Source of the DNA: a virus
Direction: 5' to 3' (one strand)
DNA: 24,525 nt
IMG/VR virus record: IMGVR_UViG_3300050821_004764
Location: 1-24,525 of that record
In this document: positions 1 to 24,268 of the stretch, in pieces
How positions within the stretch are numbered: the first letter of the stretch is position 1
Layout: the number at the start of each line of letters is the position of its first letter
Notes under the pieces: generated by a model
What the model saw: the letters and a program-made list of their open reading frames with translations, nothing else
The model's database searches: none
What the model was told of the DNA's origin: nothing
Translations under genes and position numbers: made by a program

Positions 1-278
1 CCGAAGCCGACGAGAAGCTCGCGATCAAGCGCACGCGCGGGGAGGCGCTACGCACCATCGACGAGCTCACCAAGCAGATGATCCGCGTGGTGGACGGAGT
101 GAAGTCCGACTGGACCGGCGTAACCGGCGCCGGCTCCGTGTCGAACTTCTGGACGGAGATCGGCGGGAAGTGCCGCCAGCTCCTCAAGAACATCTACCTC
201 AAGAACCACTCGCTGGCGCCGGAGGAGACCGCCGATTTTTTCGGGCACTGTATCGCAGCCAAGACCGTCGATGGCTAG
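1..278 (+). CDS. Tail assembly chaperone (gpG-like), 5' partial
   Basis: The first full codon is at 3 and the reading frame stays open to TAG at 276-278. The start lies outside the window, and 91 residues are visible. The protein is hydrophilic and rich in Lys, Glu and Asp, with one Trp-containing segment (SDWTGV). No domain can be named from sequence alone. The call rests on context: it sits two reading units upstream of the tape measure gene, and it runs into a second open frame at -1 through a slippery run at 236-242. This is the arrangement of the lambda G/GT-type chaperone pairs that bind the tape measure during tail assembly and are absent from the mature virion. The unshifted product would end 12 residues after the slip. 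Confidence 0.75.
   Translation, partial: EADEKLAIKRTRGEALRTIDELTKQMIRVVDGVKSDWTGVTGAGSVSNFWTEIGGKCRQLLKNIYLKNHSLAPEETADFFGHCIAAKTVDG
236..242 (+). promoter_or_regulatory. -1 ribosomal frameshift (slippery) site T_TTT_TTC
   Basis: In the frame of the upstream gene the bases read GAT TTT TTC GGG, so the heptamer is T TTT TTC, an X XXY YYZ slippery site. Slipping back one base lets both tRNAs re-pair on TTT TTT. Reading then continues at 242 (CGG) in the frame that is open to 574. The zero-frame stop is 33 bases downstream of the site. I found no convincing strong hairpin or pseudoknot just downstream, so the stimulator, if any, is unidentified. Confidence 0.82.
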
Positions 279-574
279 GCCGCGTCTGGCGCACCTTCCC
301 GCTCGACCCTGACGTCGCGCTCGAGCGCCTGAACCGGCTGATCTACAAGAGTGAAGGCTACGTCGACGCGTACTGGGACCTGCTCTACGTGGAGGACCCG
401 GAGAAGCTTTTGGAGGCCCGCACCAAGCAGAAGATGTACCTTGCTAGGTATGGCCGCGTCTCTCCGTTCGAGTGGGAGGACCGGGACCTTGGAGAGCTGC
501 GCGGGCACTTCGAGGCGCTGGTGGACTTGATCAAGGCGGAAGCGGGCACGATGCGCAACCCTGAGGATCTGTAG
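236..574 (+). CDS. Tail assembly chaperone frameshift extension (gpT-like part of gpGT)
   Basis: This -1 frame has no plausible start of its own: the only nearby in-frame ATG (170) lies inside the upstream gene and would give an atypical Pro/Arg-rich leader. It is best read as the C-terminal part of a fusion made by slipping at 236-242, giving about 110 extra residues (RALYRSQ... to ...RNPEDL) joined to the upstream protein. The segment is acidic and Trp/Tyr-containing (DAYWDLLYVEDPEKLLEA, FEWEDRDLG). The TAG stop is followed two bases later by the tape measure ATG, as expected for a GT-type chaperone that recruits the tape measure protein. The protein itself shows no recognisable motif, so the function is inferred from arrangement. 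Confidence 0.8.
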   Translation, partial: FFRALYRSQDRRWLGRVWRTFPLDPDVALERLNRLIYKSEGYVDAYWDLLYVEDPEKLLEARTKQKMYLARYGRVSPFEWEDRDLGELRGHFEALVDLIKAEAGTMRNPEDL

Positions 575-576
575 CG

Positions 577-2622
577 ATGGCCGAAGACGTAACGATTGGC
601 GCAAAACTAAAGCTCGACGACCACGCGTCCGAGGCCCTCGAGCACATCAAGGAGGGGTTCGAAAGCGCCAAGGAGAAGCTGGAGCCGCTGCAGGAGAAGA
701 TTCACGAGGTCGGCCACGAGATCATGGACATGGCGAAGCAGGCCGTCGCCGTCGCCGCCGGCTTCCAGATGTCCGGTGCCATCGAGTCGATCAAGGAGCT
801 GGGGCACGAGGTCTTCGAGGCTGGGCAGGAGGTCGAGGACACGAACAAGGAGCTAGCCGGCCTCATGTCGATCACCGACAAGGGCGGGAGCTCGTTCGAG
901 GAGCTGACCGAGAAAGCCAACGAGCTCCGCGAGGGGCTCGACAACATGGCGATCACCTCCGGCGTTGCGAAGAAGGACGTGATGGACGCGTTCGAGATGA
1001 TCGCGCTCCGCTCCAAGAAGCCGGCCGAGGAGATCCAGGGCATGGTCGGCGAGATGACGCAGGCCTCCAAGGCGCTCCCCGGCGGCATGACACGGATGGC
1101 TGAGGGCTGGCGCGACTTGGAGTCGGGCTTCGTGCGGCCGCGCAACGCGCTCGTCCAGCTCATTCGCCAGACCGACACGGCGAAGGGCAGCGCGCGCGAC
1201 ATCGCGAAGGCGCTTACGAAGGACATCCAAGAGGGGCACCCGGAGAAGGCCTTCGAGCTGGCCGAGGAAGCCATCAAGAAGATGAGCGCGCGCATGAAGG
1301 ACGCGCCGCCGACGTTCGGCCAGCTGGTGACGTCGCTGAAGGACATTCGCTCATCTCTGTTCGAGGCGATGGGAGTGCCCATCCTCAAAGCGCTCGTGCC
1401 CCCGCTCGAGCGCCTCAAGGGGTACCTCGTCGACAACAAGGACAAGATCGACGAATTCGCCCACACCATCGGGGACAAGGTTGGGAAGTGGGCGAACGAA
1501 GCCGCCGACAAGATTCAGAAGGGGTTCCAGTACATCCAGGACCACGCCGACCAGATCGAGTCGGCGATCTCCACGGCAGTCGGCGTCGCCAAGTCCGTCA
1601 TCGATTACATCATCGCGCACAAGGAGGAGATCGCGCTCGCGTTCGGAGCTAAGACGGCGCTCAACATCGGGACGGCGGCGGCAGGTGCACTCCCTGGGGC
1701 CTACAGCGGCATCGCCGGCGTTGGGGCGCTGCTCGGTATCGGGGGAGAGCACAAGGAAGGCAAGGGGCACGGGGGTGTGGGGCACGGAGCGTCCGCCGCC
1801 GCGACGGCGGAGAAGGAGGCCGTAGCGGCTACGCAGCTGGAGCGCGAAGTGGCTGCGGTCGCGCACGCTGAGAAGGAGGCCGCGTCGGCGACCCGCGTCG
1901 CCACGGCCGCGGTGAAGGAAGGCACGATCGCTGAGAAGGCCCTGGCCGAAGGCGCTGCTGGACTCGGCGACGCAGCCCCCGCCGCCGAGGGGGTGATGGA
2001 GGCGCTCATGGGGGGTCCGGCAGGGTGGGCTGTCATCGCAGGCCTTGCCGCCGTCGCCGCCGTTACGATCTTCGCCGTGGCGGGGGCCGTGTCCGCGCTG
2101 ACCGACGAGATGAGCCCGTTCCACAAGCACGCCCTCGCGCTCTGGCACATGATCGTGTTCAACCTCGGCGAAGCATTCCAGGAGCTGAAACAGGACGGGT
2201 CGGAGCTCTGGACCGCCGTGAAACCCCTCGCGGAGGTCATGGGGGTCATGCTCCTGATGGGCATCAAGAGCGCCACCGAGGGGCTCCTCATGCTCGTGCG
2301 CGTGCTCGAGAAGGTGGGGCCGGCGCTCACGTACCCCATCTCCATCCTGGCGTCGCTCGCGGGCCCGGGCGGCAAGGGCACCTCCGTCCCGTACCACCCC
2401 GAGGGTGGGGCCATGAAGGCGAGCTTCAAGGCGGCTGGCTTGGCCGCCGCGGCCCAGGGCGCCGCCCCGCTCATCCACATGTCGGGTGGCCAGACGTTCA
2501 ACATTCACCAAGACTACCGGGACCAGGATCCGGACCGGATGATGCTCATTTTCCGCCGGGATATTGCGCGGAACGCGGTCGCATCTGCCTCCGCCCGCAC
2601 TGCGCTCCCGTTGGGCCTTTGA
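577..2622 (+). CDS. Tail tape measure protein
   Basis: This 681-residue protein sets tail length and is threaded through the tail tube. The N-terminal third is charged and helical with Lys/Glu heptad-like stretches (about residues 10-75 and 95-160), typical of coiled coil. A Gly/His-rich then Ala/Glu-rich section spans about 385-470. A strongly hydrophobic Ala/Val/Ile segment (about 480-508) matches the membrane-spanning patches common in tape measures. Its place directly after the frameshifted chaperone pair and before baseplate genes supports the call. By the usual rule of about 0.15 nm per residue, the tail would be roughly 100 nm, which is an inference only. It starts two bases after the preceding stop. 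Confidence 0.88.
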   Translation: MAEDVTIGAKLKLDDHASEALEHIKEGFESAKEKLEPLQEKIHEVGHEIMDMAKQAVAVAAGFQMSGAIESIKELGHEVFEAGQEVEDTNKELAGLMSITDKGGSSFEELTEKANELREGLDNMAITSGVAKKDVMDAFEMIALRSKKPAEEIQGMVGEMTQASKALPGGMTRMAEGWRDLESGFVRPRNALVQLIRQTDTAKGSARDIAKALTKDIQEGHPEKAFELAEEAIKKMSARMKDAPPTFGQLVTSLKDIRSSLFEAMGVPILKALVPPLERLKGYLVDNKDKIDEFAHTIGDKVGKWANEAADKIQKGFQYIQDHADQIESAISTAVGVAKSVIDYIIAHKEEIALAFGAKTALNIGTAAAGALPGAYSGIAGVGALLGIGGEHKEGKGHGGVGHGASAAATAEKEAVAATQLEREVAAVAHAEKEAASATRVATAAVKEGTIAEKALAEGAAGLGDAAPAAEGVMEALMGGPAGWAVIAGLAAVAAVTIFAVAGAVSALTDEMSPFHKHALALWHMIVFNLGEAFQELKQDGSELWTAVKPLAEVMGVMLLMGIKSATEGLLMLVRVLEKVGPALTYPISILASLAGPGGKGTSVPYHPEGGAMKASFKAAGLAAAAQGAAPLIHMSGGQTFNIHQDYRDQDPDRMMLIFRRDIARNAVASASARTALPLGL

Positions 2623-9171: not shown

Positions 9172-9723
9172 ATGAAGGGTAGGATTAGGAAGTGCTCCTG
9201 TGGGGTCTGCAAGCGCTGCAAGCATCGGGAGTACATGCGCCAGTGGTACGCCAACAACTTATCCAAGGTGCGCGCCGATCGGCGCGCCAAGTACGCGAAG
9301 AACCGCAGCGGAATTCGTGCCCAGCAACGCAAGTGGCGTGCGCGCAACCCGGAGGTGGCCAAGGAGTACTGCCGGCGCCACTACGAGAAAAGCAAGCACA
9401 CCACGCGCCCTGCTTATTTTCAGCGTACGGTCGCGCAGCGCTTGTGGTGGCGAAACAACTGGGATGCCAAGCGCAAGGGTTTCGCGCCGTTGGCAATGAC
9501 CTGCGAAGAGTTCGCGGCCTGGTACAAGATCGAAACGGCCAAGGGCAAGCATTGCAGGTGCTGCGGTAAGATCGAATCGAAGTTAGCCGTCGACCACGAC
9601 CACGAGACCGGGAAGGTTAGGGACTTGATCTGTAAGGCCTGCAACATGATCGAAGGCCTCGCGCGAGATGTGGCCCACCTCGGCGCGGTAGCAACGTATA
9701 TGCGCCACCACAAAGCTTCGTAG
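9172..9723 (+). CDS. HNH / endonuclease VII-like nuclease
   Basis: This 183-residue protein has a basic Arg/Lys-rich N-terminal part with Cys pairs (CSCGVCKRC). The C-terminal zinc and catalytic pattern is CRCCG...LAVDHDHETGKVRDLICKACNMIEG, the signature of the Endonuclease VII (recombination nuclease) branch of HNH enzymes: DHDH followed by a CxxCN zinc site. It cleaves branched or double-stranded DNA. Unlike its neighbours it is not structural and sits between two baseplate J-like genes. It has lower GC than the flanking genes and no clear ribosome binding site. It is most likely a freestanding homing-type insertion, and less likely a phage resolvase. The next gene begins 5 bases after its stop. 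Confidence 0.82.
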   Translation: MKGRIRKCSCGVCKRCKHREYMRQWYANNLSKVRADRRAKYAKNRSGIRAQQRKWRARNPEVAKEYCRRHYEKSKHTTRPAYFQRTVAQRLWWRNNWDAKRKGFAPLAMTCEEFAAWYKIETAKGKHCRCCGKIESKLAVDHDHETGKVRDLICKACNMIEGLARDVAHLGAVATYMRHHKAS

Positions 9724-14156: not shown

Positions 14157-15104
14157 GTGGCGCAGTCCGTAGCGCTCGACCGCGTCTCCCGGCTCGACCA
14201 CGACTGCGTGGTCCTCACGGTCGTCGCGCGCGCGTACAAGCGTCTGGGGCTCACGCTCCCCGACGGCGAGTGGGTGTCGCCGATCGAGAAGGCGCGCGTG
14301 CTCGAGACGTACTTCCTTACCCACACCCAGCCAGACAAGCTCGCGACGTGCGACAACTGCCACGGCCAAAGTGACGTCGCGTACCCGGGGTGCCCCTTCT
14401 GCGGCGACGCGGACACTGGAGGGCTGGTCCCTGCGACGCTCGAGCAGGTCGACGCGCTGGACGAGGCGCTGAAGGCAATCGCCGCGTACAGGTACGAGAT
14501 CGCCACGTCCATGTGGGCACTCGGGATGCTCCTCTTGCGCGTGCGCAACACGCGCCTGTACCGCGTGCGCCGCGACGAGAACGGGAAGCAGAAGTACCGC
14601 TCCTTCGGGGAGTGGGTGAAGCGCGAAGCGAAGATGGCGATCGGGTGGGCGTACGAGCTGATGGAGACCGCGCAGCACTTCGCGGAGGCGGACGTGCGCA
14701 GCATCGGGCCCTCCAAGCTGAGTCGCATCCTGCGCGCCCCCAAGGAGGCTCGAGAGGAGCTGACAGCGCTGGCGCGCGCGGGGGCGACGCGGAGGGAGCT
14801 CGACGCGCGGGGGCGTCTGGCGAAGGCCGAGCTCCCGCCCAAGCCACGCTCCCGGATCGTCCACTTCGACATGCCCCGGGACGTGGTCTACTCGGTACCG
14901 CTGATGGCTCGTCACGCCCCCAAGGAACGCGCGCACGCGCTTCACCAGCTTCCCGTGGGGGTGCTGAAGCTGCCGGGCGACTCGTGCCTGTTCGTCCAGG
15001 TGCACAAGGGGGCAGATGGGGCGCTCACGGCATCCGTGCGCGCGGGGACGATCGGCGAGAAGCCTAATCTCCCAGCAAGTACGCGGCCTCCAACGCGGGC
15101 GTGA
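14157..15104 (+). CDS. Zinc-ribbon protein with possible DNA-binding helical domain
   Basis: This 315-residue protein starts at GTG 14157 without a clear Shine-Dalgarno. It contains a zinc ribbon: Cys65, Cys68, Cys79 and Cys82 (CDNC...CPFC). A helical section follows (about 100-215: YRYEIATSMWALGMLLLRVRN, SFGEWVKREAKMAIGWAYELMETAQHF, SKLSRILRAPKEAREELTAL), similar in layout to ParB/KorB-associated helix-turn-helix proteins found in delta-proteobacteria. The C-terminal part is basic and beta-rich. It is the last + strand gene before a strand switch and overlaps the convergent RuvC-like gene by 41 bases. A regulator or DNA-binding factor is likely; a named function is not supported. Confidence 0.5.
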   Translation: MAQSVALDRVSRLDHDCVVLTVVARAYKRLGLTLPDGEWVSPIEKARVLETYFLTHTQPDKLATCDNCHGQSDVAYPGCPFCGDADTGGLVPATLEQVDALDEALKAIAAYRYEIATSMWALGMLLLRVRNTRLYRVRRDENGKQKYRSFGEWVKREAKMAIGWAYELMETAQHFAEADVRSIGPSKLSRILRAPKEAREELTALARAGATRRELDARGRLAKAELPPKPRSRIVHFDMPRDVVYSVPLMARHAPKERAHALHQLPVGVLKLPGDSCLFVQVHKGADGALTASVRAGTIGEKPNLPASTRPPTRA

Positions 15105-15615
15105 GCGCGTCCGTCACGGCCTGCATCCCCAGCTCCGAGCGCCCCGCGTTCGCCACGACCCACGCGTCGCCCTCGTCGGCGGTCTTGAAGCAGGTACCCA
15201 GCGCCTTGATCGCGCGGTGGGTCAGCATGGCGCGGTCCTTCTGCGGAAGCTTCCCCAGGAACAGCTTGCGGGCGGTGCTCTGGTTCATCGGGCGCGCGGT
15301 CACTTTGCAATCGGTGTAGAGACGAGCCTTCACGGCACCTCCAAGCTCGGCCAGCTGCAGCATAGACGCCGACCCCGCCATCATCCCGTACGCGTAGTCC
15401 TCCACGAATACGGCGCAGTCACCCCACCGACGTACGAACATTGCGATGCCTTCCGCGATGTAGGCGAGGCGTTGGGGGCCCTTCTCGTCGGCGCGGCACA
15501 CGAACGTTTGCGAGCGCAGCACGCTCCATCGCCCGAACGTCCAGCGCGGCGGCACGTAGACGGCTGCAGAGCAGCGCAAGCTGAGGTCCAGTCCGACTAC
15601 TCCGATTCGCGTCAT
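15064..15615 (-). CDS. RuvC-like Holliday junction resolvase
   Basis: This 183-residue protein has an RNase H-like fold pattern: GLDLS with Asp10, then VFVEDYAYG with Glu72, and the C-terminal DEGDAWVVAN with Asp147 and Asp150. These supply the four acidic residues of RuvC-type resolvases. The SMLQLAELGGAVKARLY segment is typical of phage RuvC relatives. It cuts four-way junctions during phage DNA recombination or before packaging. It is the only minus-strand gene in the window. ATG is at 15615, and no strong ribosome binding site is visible. A motif TTACAGC-N5-TAGAACAG lies about 40 bases upstream on its strand. Confidence 0.85.
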   Translation of the reverse strand: MTRIGVVGLDLSLRCSAAVYVPPRWTFGRWSVLRSQTFVCRADEKGPQRLAYIAEGIAMFVRRWGDCAVFVEDYAYGMMAGSASMLQLAELGGAVKARLYTDCKVTARPMNQSTARKLFLGKLPQKDRAMLTHRAIKALGTCFKTADEGDAWVVANAGRSELGMQAVTDALTPALEAAYLLGD

Positions 15616-17850: not shown

Positions 17851-17898
17851 ACGGTAGGGGGTCGCGAGCGCGCGAGCGTTCGCGTCGCCCCCTGCCGT
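17851..17898 (+). terminator. Terminator-like hairpin before the MoxR gene
   Basis: Outer arms ACGGTAGGGGG (17851-17861) and CCCCCTGCCGT (17888-17898) pair over 11 bases with one G-T pair. Inside, CGCGA (17863-17867) and TCGCG (17880-17884) can pair too. No T-run follows, so it may be an intrinsic terminator of the GC-rich type, a pause or a processing site. Confidence 0.4.
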
Positions 17899-17953
17899 GT
17901 GTTCGACAGTCGTTCACACGCTACAGTCACTCAACCCGATTCGGAGGCGCACC

Positions 17954-19102
17954 ATGAGCGTTGCCAACATCATTCACGCGGCCTACTTCAGCAAGGGCAT
18001 CAACGGTCTCTGGGGACTGCCCATCTTCTTCGTTGGCGAGCCGGGCATCGGCAAGTCGAGCATCCTCTCCGCGTTCACGCGCAAGTGGGACATCCCGCTC
18101 AAGGTGCTCTCCCCCGCACTGCACGGCGAAGGCGCGTTCGGCGTCATCCCGGTGCCGGGCAAAGACGGGCTCGACCATCCCGCCCCCACGTGGACGCGGG
18201 AGTTCACTGACGGCGGACTCGTCTTCGTTGACGAGCCGAACGCGGCCGGCCCGGCCCTTCAGCCCCCCATCATGGGCCTCGTGTGCGACCGACGCATCGG
18301 GGACCACTTCTTGGGTGAGCGCACGCGAACGCTCATGGCCATGAACCCCGTCGAGGTCGCCGCGAATGGACACGACCTGAGCGCCCCGCTCGCGAATCGA
18401 GGCGGGTGGGTGAAGTGGGACCCGCAGGCGGTCGAGACGTTCGTCCAGTTCCTCATGGGTGAGGGGCAGGGGGAAAAGATCGAGGTGCAGGACGCGAAGA
18501 AGGAAGAGGCCCGCGTCGAGAAGGCGTGGCCCGAGGCGTACGCGCGCTCGGTCGGTCTCATCTCGTCGTTCCTGATGTCCCATCCCGACCTCAAAAACAA
18601 GTGCCCGAAGGCAGGCGACCCCGCAGCGTCGGGCGCGTGGCCGTCGGATCGCTCGTGGGACATGGCGCTGCGCGCGCTGGCGGGCACGTTCGTTCATTCG
18701 ATGACGGACGCGGACAAGGACTCGTTCGTCGCGGGCTTCATCGGGCCCGTTGCCTACGAGGCCCTCTCGACTTTCATCGAACAGGCCGACATGCCGCACA
18801 TCCCCGACGTCGCCGACGGCAAAGTCGCGTTCGAATGGAACGCCAAGCGCCTCGACCGTTGCGCTGCGATCCTCAGCGCGTGCGTCGCGCTCGTGGTTCC
18901 GAGCGCAGCTGACCGACGAGTCGAGCGCGCGGCGCGCATCTGGACGTTCCTCGGTAACGCGGGGGCGTACGACATCACGGTGCCTGCCGCCCAGGCGCTC
19001 GTGAAGGCCGGGCTGCACCTCTCCAAGGAGGCGGCGCCGGTGCTCACCAAGATCCACCCCGCGCTTCGCGCTGCGGGCATCCGTGCAGGGGAGGCAATCT
19101 GA
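17954..19102 (+). CDS. MoxR-type AAA+ ATPase
   Basis: This 382-residue protein starts at ATG 17954 with CGGAGG upstream. Walker A is GEPGIGKS (28-35). Walker B is LVFVDE (89-94). Sensor 1 is at Asn131 (RTLMAMNP), and the LANR motif carrying an arginine (Arg149) follows. This is the core of MoxR-family AAA+ proteins, which act as hexameric chaperones that load or remodel protein complexes, normally with a VWA-domain partner encoded next door. Here that partner begins at the stop codon (TGATG), so the two are translationally coupled. The C-terminal helical part (about 150-382) is longer than in minimal MoxR proteins. The insert VQDAKKEEARVEKAW is charged. The target is unknown. Confidence 0.85.
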   Translation: MSVANIIHAAYFSKGINGLWGLPIFFVGEPGIGKSSILSAFTRKWDIPLKVLSPALHGEGAFGVIPVPGKDGLDHPAPTWTREFTDGGLVFVDEPNAAGPALQPPIMGLVCDRRIGDHFLGERTRTLMAMNPVEVAANGHDLSAPLANRGGWVKWDPQAVETFVQFLMGEGQGEKIEVQDAKKEEARVEKAWPEAYARSVGLISSFLMSHPDLKNKCPKAGDPAASGAWPSDRSWDMALRALAGTFVHSMTDADKDSFVAGFIGPVAYEALSTFIEQADMPHIPDVADGKVAFEWNAKRLDRCAAILSACVALVVPSAADRRVERAARIWTFLGNAGAYDITVPAAQALVKAGLHLSKEAAPVLTKIHPALRAAGIRAGEAI

Positions 19103-20370
19103 TGGCCATGACGGCTGAAGAAGTCCTGGGTCAGGCTCGCCTGATCGTTAGGAAGAAGACTCCGTACTTTCGAGCCGCTCTCGTCGCGCTCATCCCCCGC
19201 CCGCTCGAAGGGCTTGGGACGATCGGCGTTGCGAGCGGGATGGACCACAAGGTCCAGTTGAGTCTCTCGCGCAGCGCGATCCTCGTCTACGACCCGGCCT
19301 GGCTCGCCGAGAAGACCCCCGAGCAAGTGGCGGGGCTGCTCGCGCACGAGATCCTGCACTTGCTCAACAGGCACGGGGAGCGATGCCAAGCTCGCGACCC
19401 GCGTCTGTTCAACGCGGCGGGGGACCTCGCGATCAACCCGACCGTGCGCGAGATGGGGTTCCAACTGCCCAACCAGAAAGACCAGGCCGGGCTCTGGCCC
19501 AAGGACTTCGGTTGGGAGGAGGGCCTGACTGCCGAGGAGTACTACAGGCGGCTCTTGGAGAAGCAGGAGCAAAACAAGGGCGGGGGCGGCGGCGCCGACG
19601 AAGGCGGGGTCGCTAACGGGAACTGCGGGTCGTGCGCGACGCACGACCCGAACGAGCAGAAGAAAGACGGCGACCAGGAGACGGACGGCAGCGGCCGCAC
19701 CGATCGCGAGATGGAGCGCATGTGCAAGCGCGTGGCGGAGGCGATTCAGGACGCCGCCAAGCAGCGAGGCACGCTCCCCGCCGGGCTCAAACGATGGGCC
19801 GAGCTGACACTCGTCCCCCCCAAGGTCCCCTGGCAGCAAAAGCTCGCGCACGCGATCCGTCGAGTGTGCGCGTACAGGCCGGGGGCGGTGGTCACGCGCT
19901 ACGACATGCCGAGCCGCCGTCAGGCGGGCATAGGCTACGGCATTGGCAAACCGATGCTCCCTCGACTTCGCTCCCCCGTGCCCAACGTCGCGATCGTGGT
20001 CGACACGTCGGGCAGCATGGGGAGAAGCGAGCTAACTGCGTGCCTACGCGAGTCGAGCGGCGTGCTACGCGCAGTGGGCGCGGGCGTGACGTTCCTCTCA
20101 TGCGACGCGGCTGTCCACGTGCTGCAGCAGGTCGACGACCCGCGCGAGCTGGTGAAGCTGCTCAAGGGCGGAGGCGGAACGGACTTCCGACCACCGTTCG
20201 AGGAGCTGGAGAAGCGCAAGACCCGCCCTGAAGTCTTGATCTTCATGACGGACGGGTGCGGCCCGGCCCCCGCGGTCGAGCCTAGCTGGTGCCGCACGAT
20301 CTGGTTGATCGTCGGCAAGGGCAATCGAGCGCCGTGCGACTGGGGCACGGCAATTCACGTGGAGGACTGA
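19102..20370 (+). CDS. VWA-domain protein with HExxH metallopeptidase-like N-terminal domain
   Basis: This 422-residue protein fits the DUF2201 (putative metallopeptidase) plus VWA-like architecture. The N-terminal domain (about 1-150) has HEILH at 82-86 and the conserved NAAGDLAIN (104-112), matching the family's zinc-site layout. A flexible Gly/Asp-rich stretch follows (about 155-205, with CGSC). The C-terminal VWA domain has the metal-ion adhesion motif DTSGS at 301-305, GGGGTDF, and MTDG at 382-385. All key residues are present, so it looks intact. It likely works with the MoxR ATPase just upstream, which would move or activate it on a substrate. Whether the peptidase is active is not shown. 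Confidence 0.85.
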   Translation: MAMTAEEVLGQARLIVRKKTPYFRAALVALIPRPLEGLGTIGVASGMDHKVQLSLSRSAILVYDPAWLAEKTPEQVAGLLAHEILHLLNRHGERCQARDPRLFNAAGDLAINPTVREMGFQLPNQKDQAGLWPKDFGWEEGLTAEEYYRRLLEKQEQNKGGGGGADEGGVANGNCGSCATHDPNEQKKDGDQETDGSGRTDREMERMCKRVAEAIQDAAKQRGTLPAGLKRWAELTLVPPKVPWQQKLAHAIRRVCAYRPGAVVTRYDMPSRRQAGIGYGIGKPMLPRLRSPVPNVAIVVDTSGSMGRSELTACLRESSGVLRAVGAGVTFLSCDAAVHVLQQVDDPRELVKLLKGGGGTDFRPPFEELEKRKTRPEVLIFMTDGCGPAPAVEPSWCRTIWLIVGKGNRAPCDWGTAIHVED

Positions 20371-23511: not shown

Positions 23512-24071
23512 ACCAAAAGCAGATCGACAAGGTCGTGTGCTCGGTCGCAGCACGCTACGCGAGGCGATGCTGGTGGGTCGACAAGGAGGACTTGCAGCAG
23601 GTGGGCTGGGAGGCAGCGCTCAAGGCCCTCCGCACGTGGGATCCGCAGGTGGGCGTCCCCGCCGCCGCCTACTTGTGGCGCGCGTGCTCGTTCGCGATGC
23701 GCCGATACCTCTGGCTCGAGTCTTCCCCGGTCTCGGGCGGCATGAACGACCCGAAGCGCTGCCGCACCCAGCACCGCGCGTCGCTCGAACACCCCGCCGT
23801 GGTCCACCTGAGCGACCTCACGCCTCCGCCAGACGCGCTGCTGGATGAGAAGCGATGGACGGAGGAAGTGCTACGCGGGCTCATTCGGCTGCACGACGAC
23901 GACGCCGTGCGGACGGGCATGCGCGTGCTCTTCGACGAGGCCCCCAAGGAAGTAGCGCTCGACACGGGATTGGAACGCGCGAGCGTGTACCGATCCGCGG
24001 CGAAGGCGCGAAACGAGGTAGCGTTCGACCAAGACCTATGGGCTCTGGCCCGCAGAAAGGATACGCCATGA
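23508..24071 (+). CDS. Sigma-70-like factor (phage-encoded)
   Basis: This 187-residue protein starts at ATG 23508 with GAGGAGG upstream. The in-frame start at 23349 is inside the previous gene. The section VDKEDLQQVGWEAALKALRTWDPQVGVPAAAYLWRACSFAMRRYL (about 25-70) matches sigma region 2, which binds RNA polymerase and the -10 element. The C-terminus has a helix-turn-helix-like stretch (KEVALDTGLERASVYRSAAKARNEV), as in region 4. The linker between them is Pro/Asp-rich. It resembles small extracytoplasmic-type or phage sigma factors, and may redirect transcription to phage promoters such as the TTACAGC-N5-TAGAACAG sites. That link is speculative. Confidence 0.72.
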   Translation: MNQKQIDKVVCSVAARYARRCWWVDKEDLQQVGWEAALKALRTWDPQVGVPAAAYLWRACSFAMRRYLWLESSPVSGGMNDPKRCRTQHRASLEHPAVVHLSDLTPPPDALLDEKRWTEEVLRGLIRLHDDDAVRTGMRVLFDEAPKEVALDTGLERASVYRSAAKARNEVAFDQDLWALARRKDTP

Positions 24072-24268
24072 TGTTCCTGGTGAAAGTGACCGACATCGAC
24101 GAGGACGAGCTACTCAACACGCACGTGGTGGAGTCGAGCGCGGTCATCCTGACTGTTGCCGACGTGAAGGGAAGGCTCGAGAAGGCTCTGGAGGGCCGTG
24201 ACCTTCGCGTCGACGTGCACGAGGTTCGGCCCGAGACCATCGGGCAGATCGTGAGGCAGTACCGATGA
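24068..24268 (+). CDS. Small hypothetical protein
   Basis: This 66-residue protein starts at ATG 24068 (or 24071), overlapping the previous stop. It is acidic, with beta then helix content (MMFLVKVTDIDEDELLNTH; VADVKGRLEKALEGRDLRVDVHEVRPE). No family is recognised. Its stop overlaps the next ATG. Confidence 0.65.
   Translation: MMFLVKVTDIDEDELLNTHVVESSAVILTVADVKGRLEKALEGRDLRVDVHEVRPETIGQIVRQYR

Follow-up and report, generated by a model that had tools for sequence, protein, structure and literature searches.

A tail assembly chaperone gene at the start of an uncultivated phage contig is very probably decoded in two ways, yielding a short frame-0 form and a minority -1 fusion. The DNA analysed here (the window) is a 24,525-base virus contig fragment of metagenomic origin (IMG/VR IMGVR_UViG_3300050821_004764). 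A programmed -1 frameshift in a tail-chaperone pair had been predicted for it from the letters alone, and this prediction is supported by a -1 arrangement in all 24 close lineages, by a T6 site in nearly all of them, by the lack of a workable start for the extension in several relatives, and by a chaperone-like predicted fold. A function can be proposed in this way for two previously unannotated protein domains across uncultivated contractile-tailed phages, together with a second chaperone product that is missed by ordinary gene callers.

Reading frames and predicted gene products

The frame-0 chaperone ORF occupies positions 3-278 of the plus strand. Its 5' end is cut by the contig edge, and its product terminates in ..EETADFFGHCIAAKTVDG*. 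The codons GAT (234-236), TTT (237-239), TTC (240-242), and GGG (243-245) are read in this frame on the plus strand, with letters and phase as originally predicted. They hold the slippery heptamer T_TTT_TTC at 236-242 (plus strand), which is conserved across relatives, and the frame-0 stop TAG (276-278, plus strand) follows 11 codons past it. The -1 frame had been described as open from before the site to position 574; we found it open from 2 to 574, ending two bases short of the tail tape measure protein gene (577-2622, plus strand; phrog_167, E 1.1e-7), which lies directly downstream. The -1 extension of the chaperone (239-574, plus strand; stop TAG at 572-574) carries a LARYGR..W motif. After a slip the predicted junction is ..ADFF, FF|RALYRS.., and the roughly 110 residues that the fusion was expected to add come to exactly 110 after ..ADFF. 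The accompanying statement that the non-overlapping part of the -1 frame has no start of its own holds only in part: GTG (389), TTG (410), and ATG (434) are present there, but all three lie inside the conserved -1 domain, and initiation at any of them in the window would truncate it.

Most ribosomes would stay in frame 0, terminate at 276-278, and release the short chaperone. A minority would slip back one base on T_TTT_TTC, with two Phe-tRNAs re-pairing in tandem to TTT TTT, and would go on in the -1 frame to 572-574, giving the fusion with its 110 extra residues. If the pair acts as gpG/gpGT do in lambda, the tape measure protein may be coated by the short form, with tail tube subunits recruited through the extension and the two forms made in a ratio that is low and fixed.

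Neither the frame-0 nor the -1 half matched Pfam or PHROGs. The model of the frame-0 protein has a mean pLDDT of 76, with most of its core near or above 90, and a fold search with it against viral models retrieved several that are annotated as tail assembly chaperones. In PDB, 2ob9, the tail assembly chaperone of HK97, ranked first (E 0.43, with a TM-score of 0.54 when normalised by target length), and YqbN was also among the PDB matches. The predicted fold, at moderate scores, combined with the gene order, makes a persuasive case for the frame-0 protein as a tail assembly chaperone. The -1 domain is all-helical in its predicted model. Genes upstream of the chaperone fall outside the window, and the gene order there was read in one relative, L018, in which the two ORFs before the chaperone are sheath-like (Pfam Gp18_domIII_N, E 0.012, below the cutoff) and tube-like (no clear match). 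The sheath-like ORF of L018 (1146-4085) encodes 979 aa, seemingly long for a tail sheath, and its identification is weak.

Slippery site and entry into the -1 frame

Relatives were drawn from IMG/VR plus one Armatimonadetes MAG contig. They form 24 distinct close lineages (the window counted) and 8 distant ones, 32 in all, the distant group having a hub protein identity of about 26-28%. L003 was found via its baseplate J protein (60% identity to the window), and its two chaperone halves match by tblastn in frames -1 apart that meet at the heptamer TTTTTTC; the other lineages came from scans that used alignments of the baseplate and hub proteins. Nearest-neighbour identity of the frame-0 protein was 43-69% among 21 close lineages, with one pair at 90%. 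Single-sequence scans with the fusion and with the tape measure protein gave no matches, tblastn searches of the phage collection with the hub and the fusion gave no relative, and a nine-way chaperone alignment was too divergent for use as a scan query. Weak fusion matches in large Xanthomonas/Stenotrophomonas phages and in Microviridae were at chance level. A match in Rhodobacter phage RcZahn (E 0.1) was rejected, as it sits among recombination genes and not tail genes. The genome collection yielded no matches in a baseplate protein scan and one contig, in an Armatimonadetes MAG, in a hub scan. The close relative L026 (PMZA01000011.1) lies in a contig that was assigned to an Armatimonadetes MAG of fen origin, and this binning gives Armatimonadetes as a possible host lead. 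Two loci (L044 and L045) had no clear chaperone match and are uninformative either way.

In every relative scored (profiles A8 and A9; 24 close and 8 distant) the two domains are offset by -1, as an overlapping pair of ORFs; in the window this pair immediately precedes the tape measure gene. Comparison of the heptamer in related phages had been proposed as a check, and a T6 slippery site in the usual phase, T_TTT_TTN, was found in 23 of the 24 close lineages: T_TTT_TTC in 18, T_TTT_TTA in three (L048, L062, L071), and T_TTT_TTT in two (L023, L070). The sole off-phase close lineage, L051, has GAG TTT TTT CTG. TTTTTT is the only long invariant block of a nine-way DNA alignment. The codon that gives the first T may be GAT, CAT, TAT, ACT, GCT, CGT, or TTT, its third-base T being constant while the amino acid varies. 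The TTT codon is kept in 9/9 divergent lineages (multiplying the TTT fractions of the individual phages gives 2.7e-8, independence assumed), and the T ahead of it is kept in the same nine (product of T-ending codon fractions 2.2e-7, again assuming independence). No further in-frame T_TTT_TTY occurs among the window genes compared. A point against the frameshift reading is that, in E. coli, U_UUU_UUA and U_UUU_UUU are reported to be far less shifty than A_AAA_AAG (PMC5009743). In the distant group (n=8), two lineages have T_TTT_TTG, as in P2; five (L036, L038, L039, L041, L042) have T_TTT followed by C and keep the -1 chaperone arrangement; and L043 has CAT TTC CTC.

It is very unlikely that the -1 frame forms an overlapping gene of its own, started internally either at a CTG, GTG, or TTG at heptamer +12 or at a GTG farther upstream. 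In most relatives the -1 codon at heptamer +12 is indeed an NTG (CTG in the window, GTG in L022, TTG in L018); this NTG, however, owes its presence to a Cys (TGY) conserved in frame 0, it is replaced by TCA in L057, and no SD stands 5-10 nt before it in the window, where the SD-like element is ~20 nt off. A GTG at codon -22, present in several relatives as a potential start of a -1 gene, fares no better, the upstream GTGs being blocked by -1 stops 0-4 codons ahead of the site in eight lineages (L016, L018, L020, L021, L022, L028, L031, L058). The -1 stop lies directly 5' of the heptamer in L020, L021, L022, L028, and L058, so in these phages the -1 extension can be reached only from the site itself or from a point 3' of it. 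In L021 no ATG, GTG, or TTG is found ahead of the conserved motif, the first one lying 171 nt downstream. Because of the 5' stops in several relatives and the missing start in L021, separate genes fail to explain the family. Homologs having the two frames as separate genes would have spoken against the original prediction; what was found is that a workable own start for the extension is missing in several relatives, a feature of the family that is clearest in L021. The conserved -1 residues start right at the site (FFR.L.R).

Transcriptional slippage, in which RNA polymerase would drop one base on the T run and leave some mRNA in-frame for the fusion, is an exceedingly improbable source of the second product. 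A run of at least six T in nearly all close relatives, longer than six in L023, L062, and L070, would fit such an event, but in bacteria efficient slippage is reported with nine consecutive A or T (PMC5009743), and six is short. Moreover, the T_TTT_TTN phase is held in 23/24 close lineages although TTT TTT plus another base would give an equal run length, and in most distant lineages the site is reduced to T_TTT_C. A decayed or mis-assembled gene, with an artefactual frameshift or a pseudogene, is conceivable in a metagenomic virus contig fragment but is contradicted by a -1 arrangement common to 32 distinct lineages, and its probability is negligible.

Possible stimulatory signals around the site

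No obvious stimulatory hairpin had been noticed downstream in the window, and RNA folding agrees (z = +0.3). A conserved downstream hairpin was also rejected, the mean z being -0.5 over 21 lineages. A stable hairpin shortly 3' of the heptamer was found only in the clade of L015, L023, and L048 (z -2.7 to -3.8), and L020, L021, and L052 have longer-range structure. The L015, L023, and L048 clade also has a longer frame-0 tail.

Upstream of the site, the window contains an SD-like GGAGGAG (221-227, plus strand) 8-9 nt 5' of the heptamer, a candidate stimulator. The original prediction overlooked this element, which is probably a substitute for the hairpin that it had sought. Anti-SD pairing upstream of the site in the close group averages -7.3 kcal/mol, compared with -4.5 kcal/mol at other coding positions (P<5e-5, relatedness ignored), and is strongest with the end of the element 9-10 nt before the heptamer. 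Recoding by synonymous codons, chosen according to the usage of each phage, gave -5.9 (P=0.0015, relatedness ignored); since recoding reaches only this value, conserved Glu-Glu codons account for part, not all, of the signal. Pairing in the distant group has a mean of -9.5 over a background of -4.2, with a peak at 10-13 nt and a synonymous P of 0.03 (relatedness ignored). L020 lacks the element, and those of L051 and L043 are weak.

SD stimulation of -1 shifts is reported to operate at a spacing of 9-14 nt (PMC5009743). This spacing is seen at the family level, where the signal peaks at about 9-12 nt, and the 8-9 nt of the window is at its short edge. It is fairly likely that the SD-like element 5' of the site, GGAGGAG in the window, stimulates the slip in place of a downstream hairpin. 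As in dnaX, base pairing of the element to 16S rRNA in the translating ribosome would promote slipping. The site ranges from tandem-slip T_TTT_TTC to bare T_TTT plus C in the distant group, where the five lineages with the reduced site have a strong SD-like element beside it; from this range it follows, as a tentative and rather doubtful extension, that the internal SD-like element could be the steadiest control signal across the family, compared with heptamer and hairpin, and the main driver of the chaperone ratio, with a single P-site tRNA slip being enough in some members. If the element does stimulate, the family is a natural series of sites for learning how 16S rRNA pairing, not a hairpin, would set the chaperone ratio.

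Known systems and other genes of the window

The slippery sequence of lambda G/GT differs from the T_TTT_TTC of the window. The likeness to lambda lies in gene order and logic: in lambda too, the genes ahead of that for the tape measure yield a short chaperone and, rarely, a -1 fusion (PMC5009743). P2 E/E+E' (Peduoviridae) is similar in several respects: the phage has a contractile tail, the -1 shift takes place at a T6 heptamer close to where the upstream gene ends, the extension ends at the tape measure gene, and no downstream hairpin is involved (PMC3931495, PMC3091744). The P2 shift site, between E and E', is T6G (T_TTT_TTG; PMC3931495, PMC3091744), and T7C variants have been reported in Xanthomonas and Stenotrophomonas prophages. 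In contrast to P2, the heptamer of the window ends in C and relatives have TTA or TTT, an SD-like element lies upstream, and the upstream protein is larger. Homology to P2 gpE was rejected (hhalign probability 0.4%).

The HK97 chaperone 2ob9 is the best PDB fold match to the frame-0 model, with a weak score, and no sequence similarity of the frame-0 protein to the HK97 tail assembly chaperone was found. For two HK97-like chaperone genes a frameshift efficiency of 6-7% has been measured (PMC3711429). E. coli dnaX is comparable in its SD-like stimulator, placed at the spacing reported for -1 shifting (PMC5009743); it differs in using A_AAA_AAG and a downstream hairpin (PMC3711429), whereas the family of the window has T_TTT_TTC and no conserved hairpin. 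The frameshift device itself is known in phages and, judged by sequence comparison, almost certainly works in this chaperone family as it does in P2 and lambda. The SD pattern may be the part that goes beyond these parallels.

Several other genes of the window were observed. An Endonuclease VII-like ORF (9172-9723, plus strand; Pfam Endonuclease_7, E 3.4e-14) lies between two baseplate-region genes, a placement that resembles a homing endonuclease insertion. A RuvC-like Holliday junction resolvase (15064-15615, minus strand; phrog_159, E 5.3e-16) is encoded on the strand opposite to its neighbours. At 17897-20370 (plus strand) an ATPase (phrog_1297) adjoins a DUF2201 metallopeptidase/VWA protein, for which the PHROGs label 'HNH endonuclease' (phrog_1314) is at odds with Pfam. 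A Sigma-70 region 2 protein (23529-24071, plus strand; Pfam E 1.4e-7) suggests phage-encoded transcription control, and the next ORF, at 24265, is ParB_N-like.
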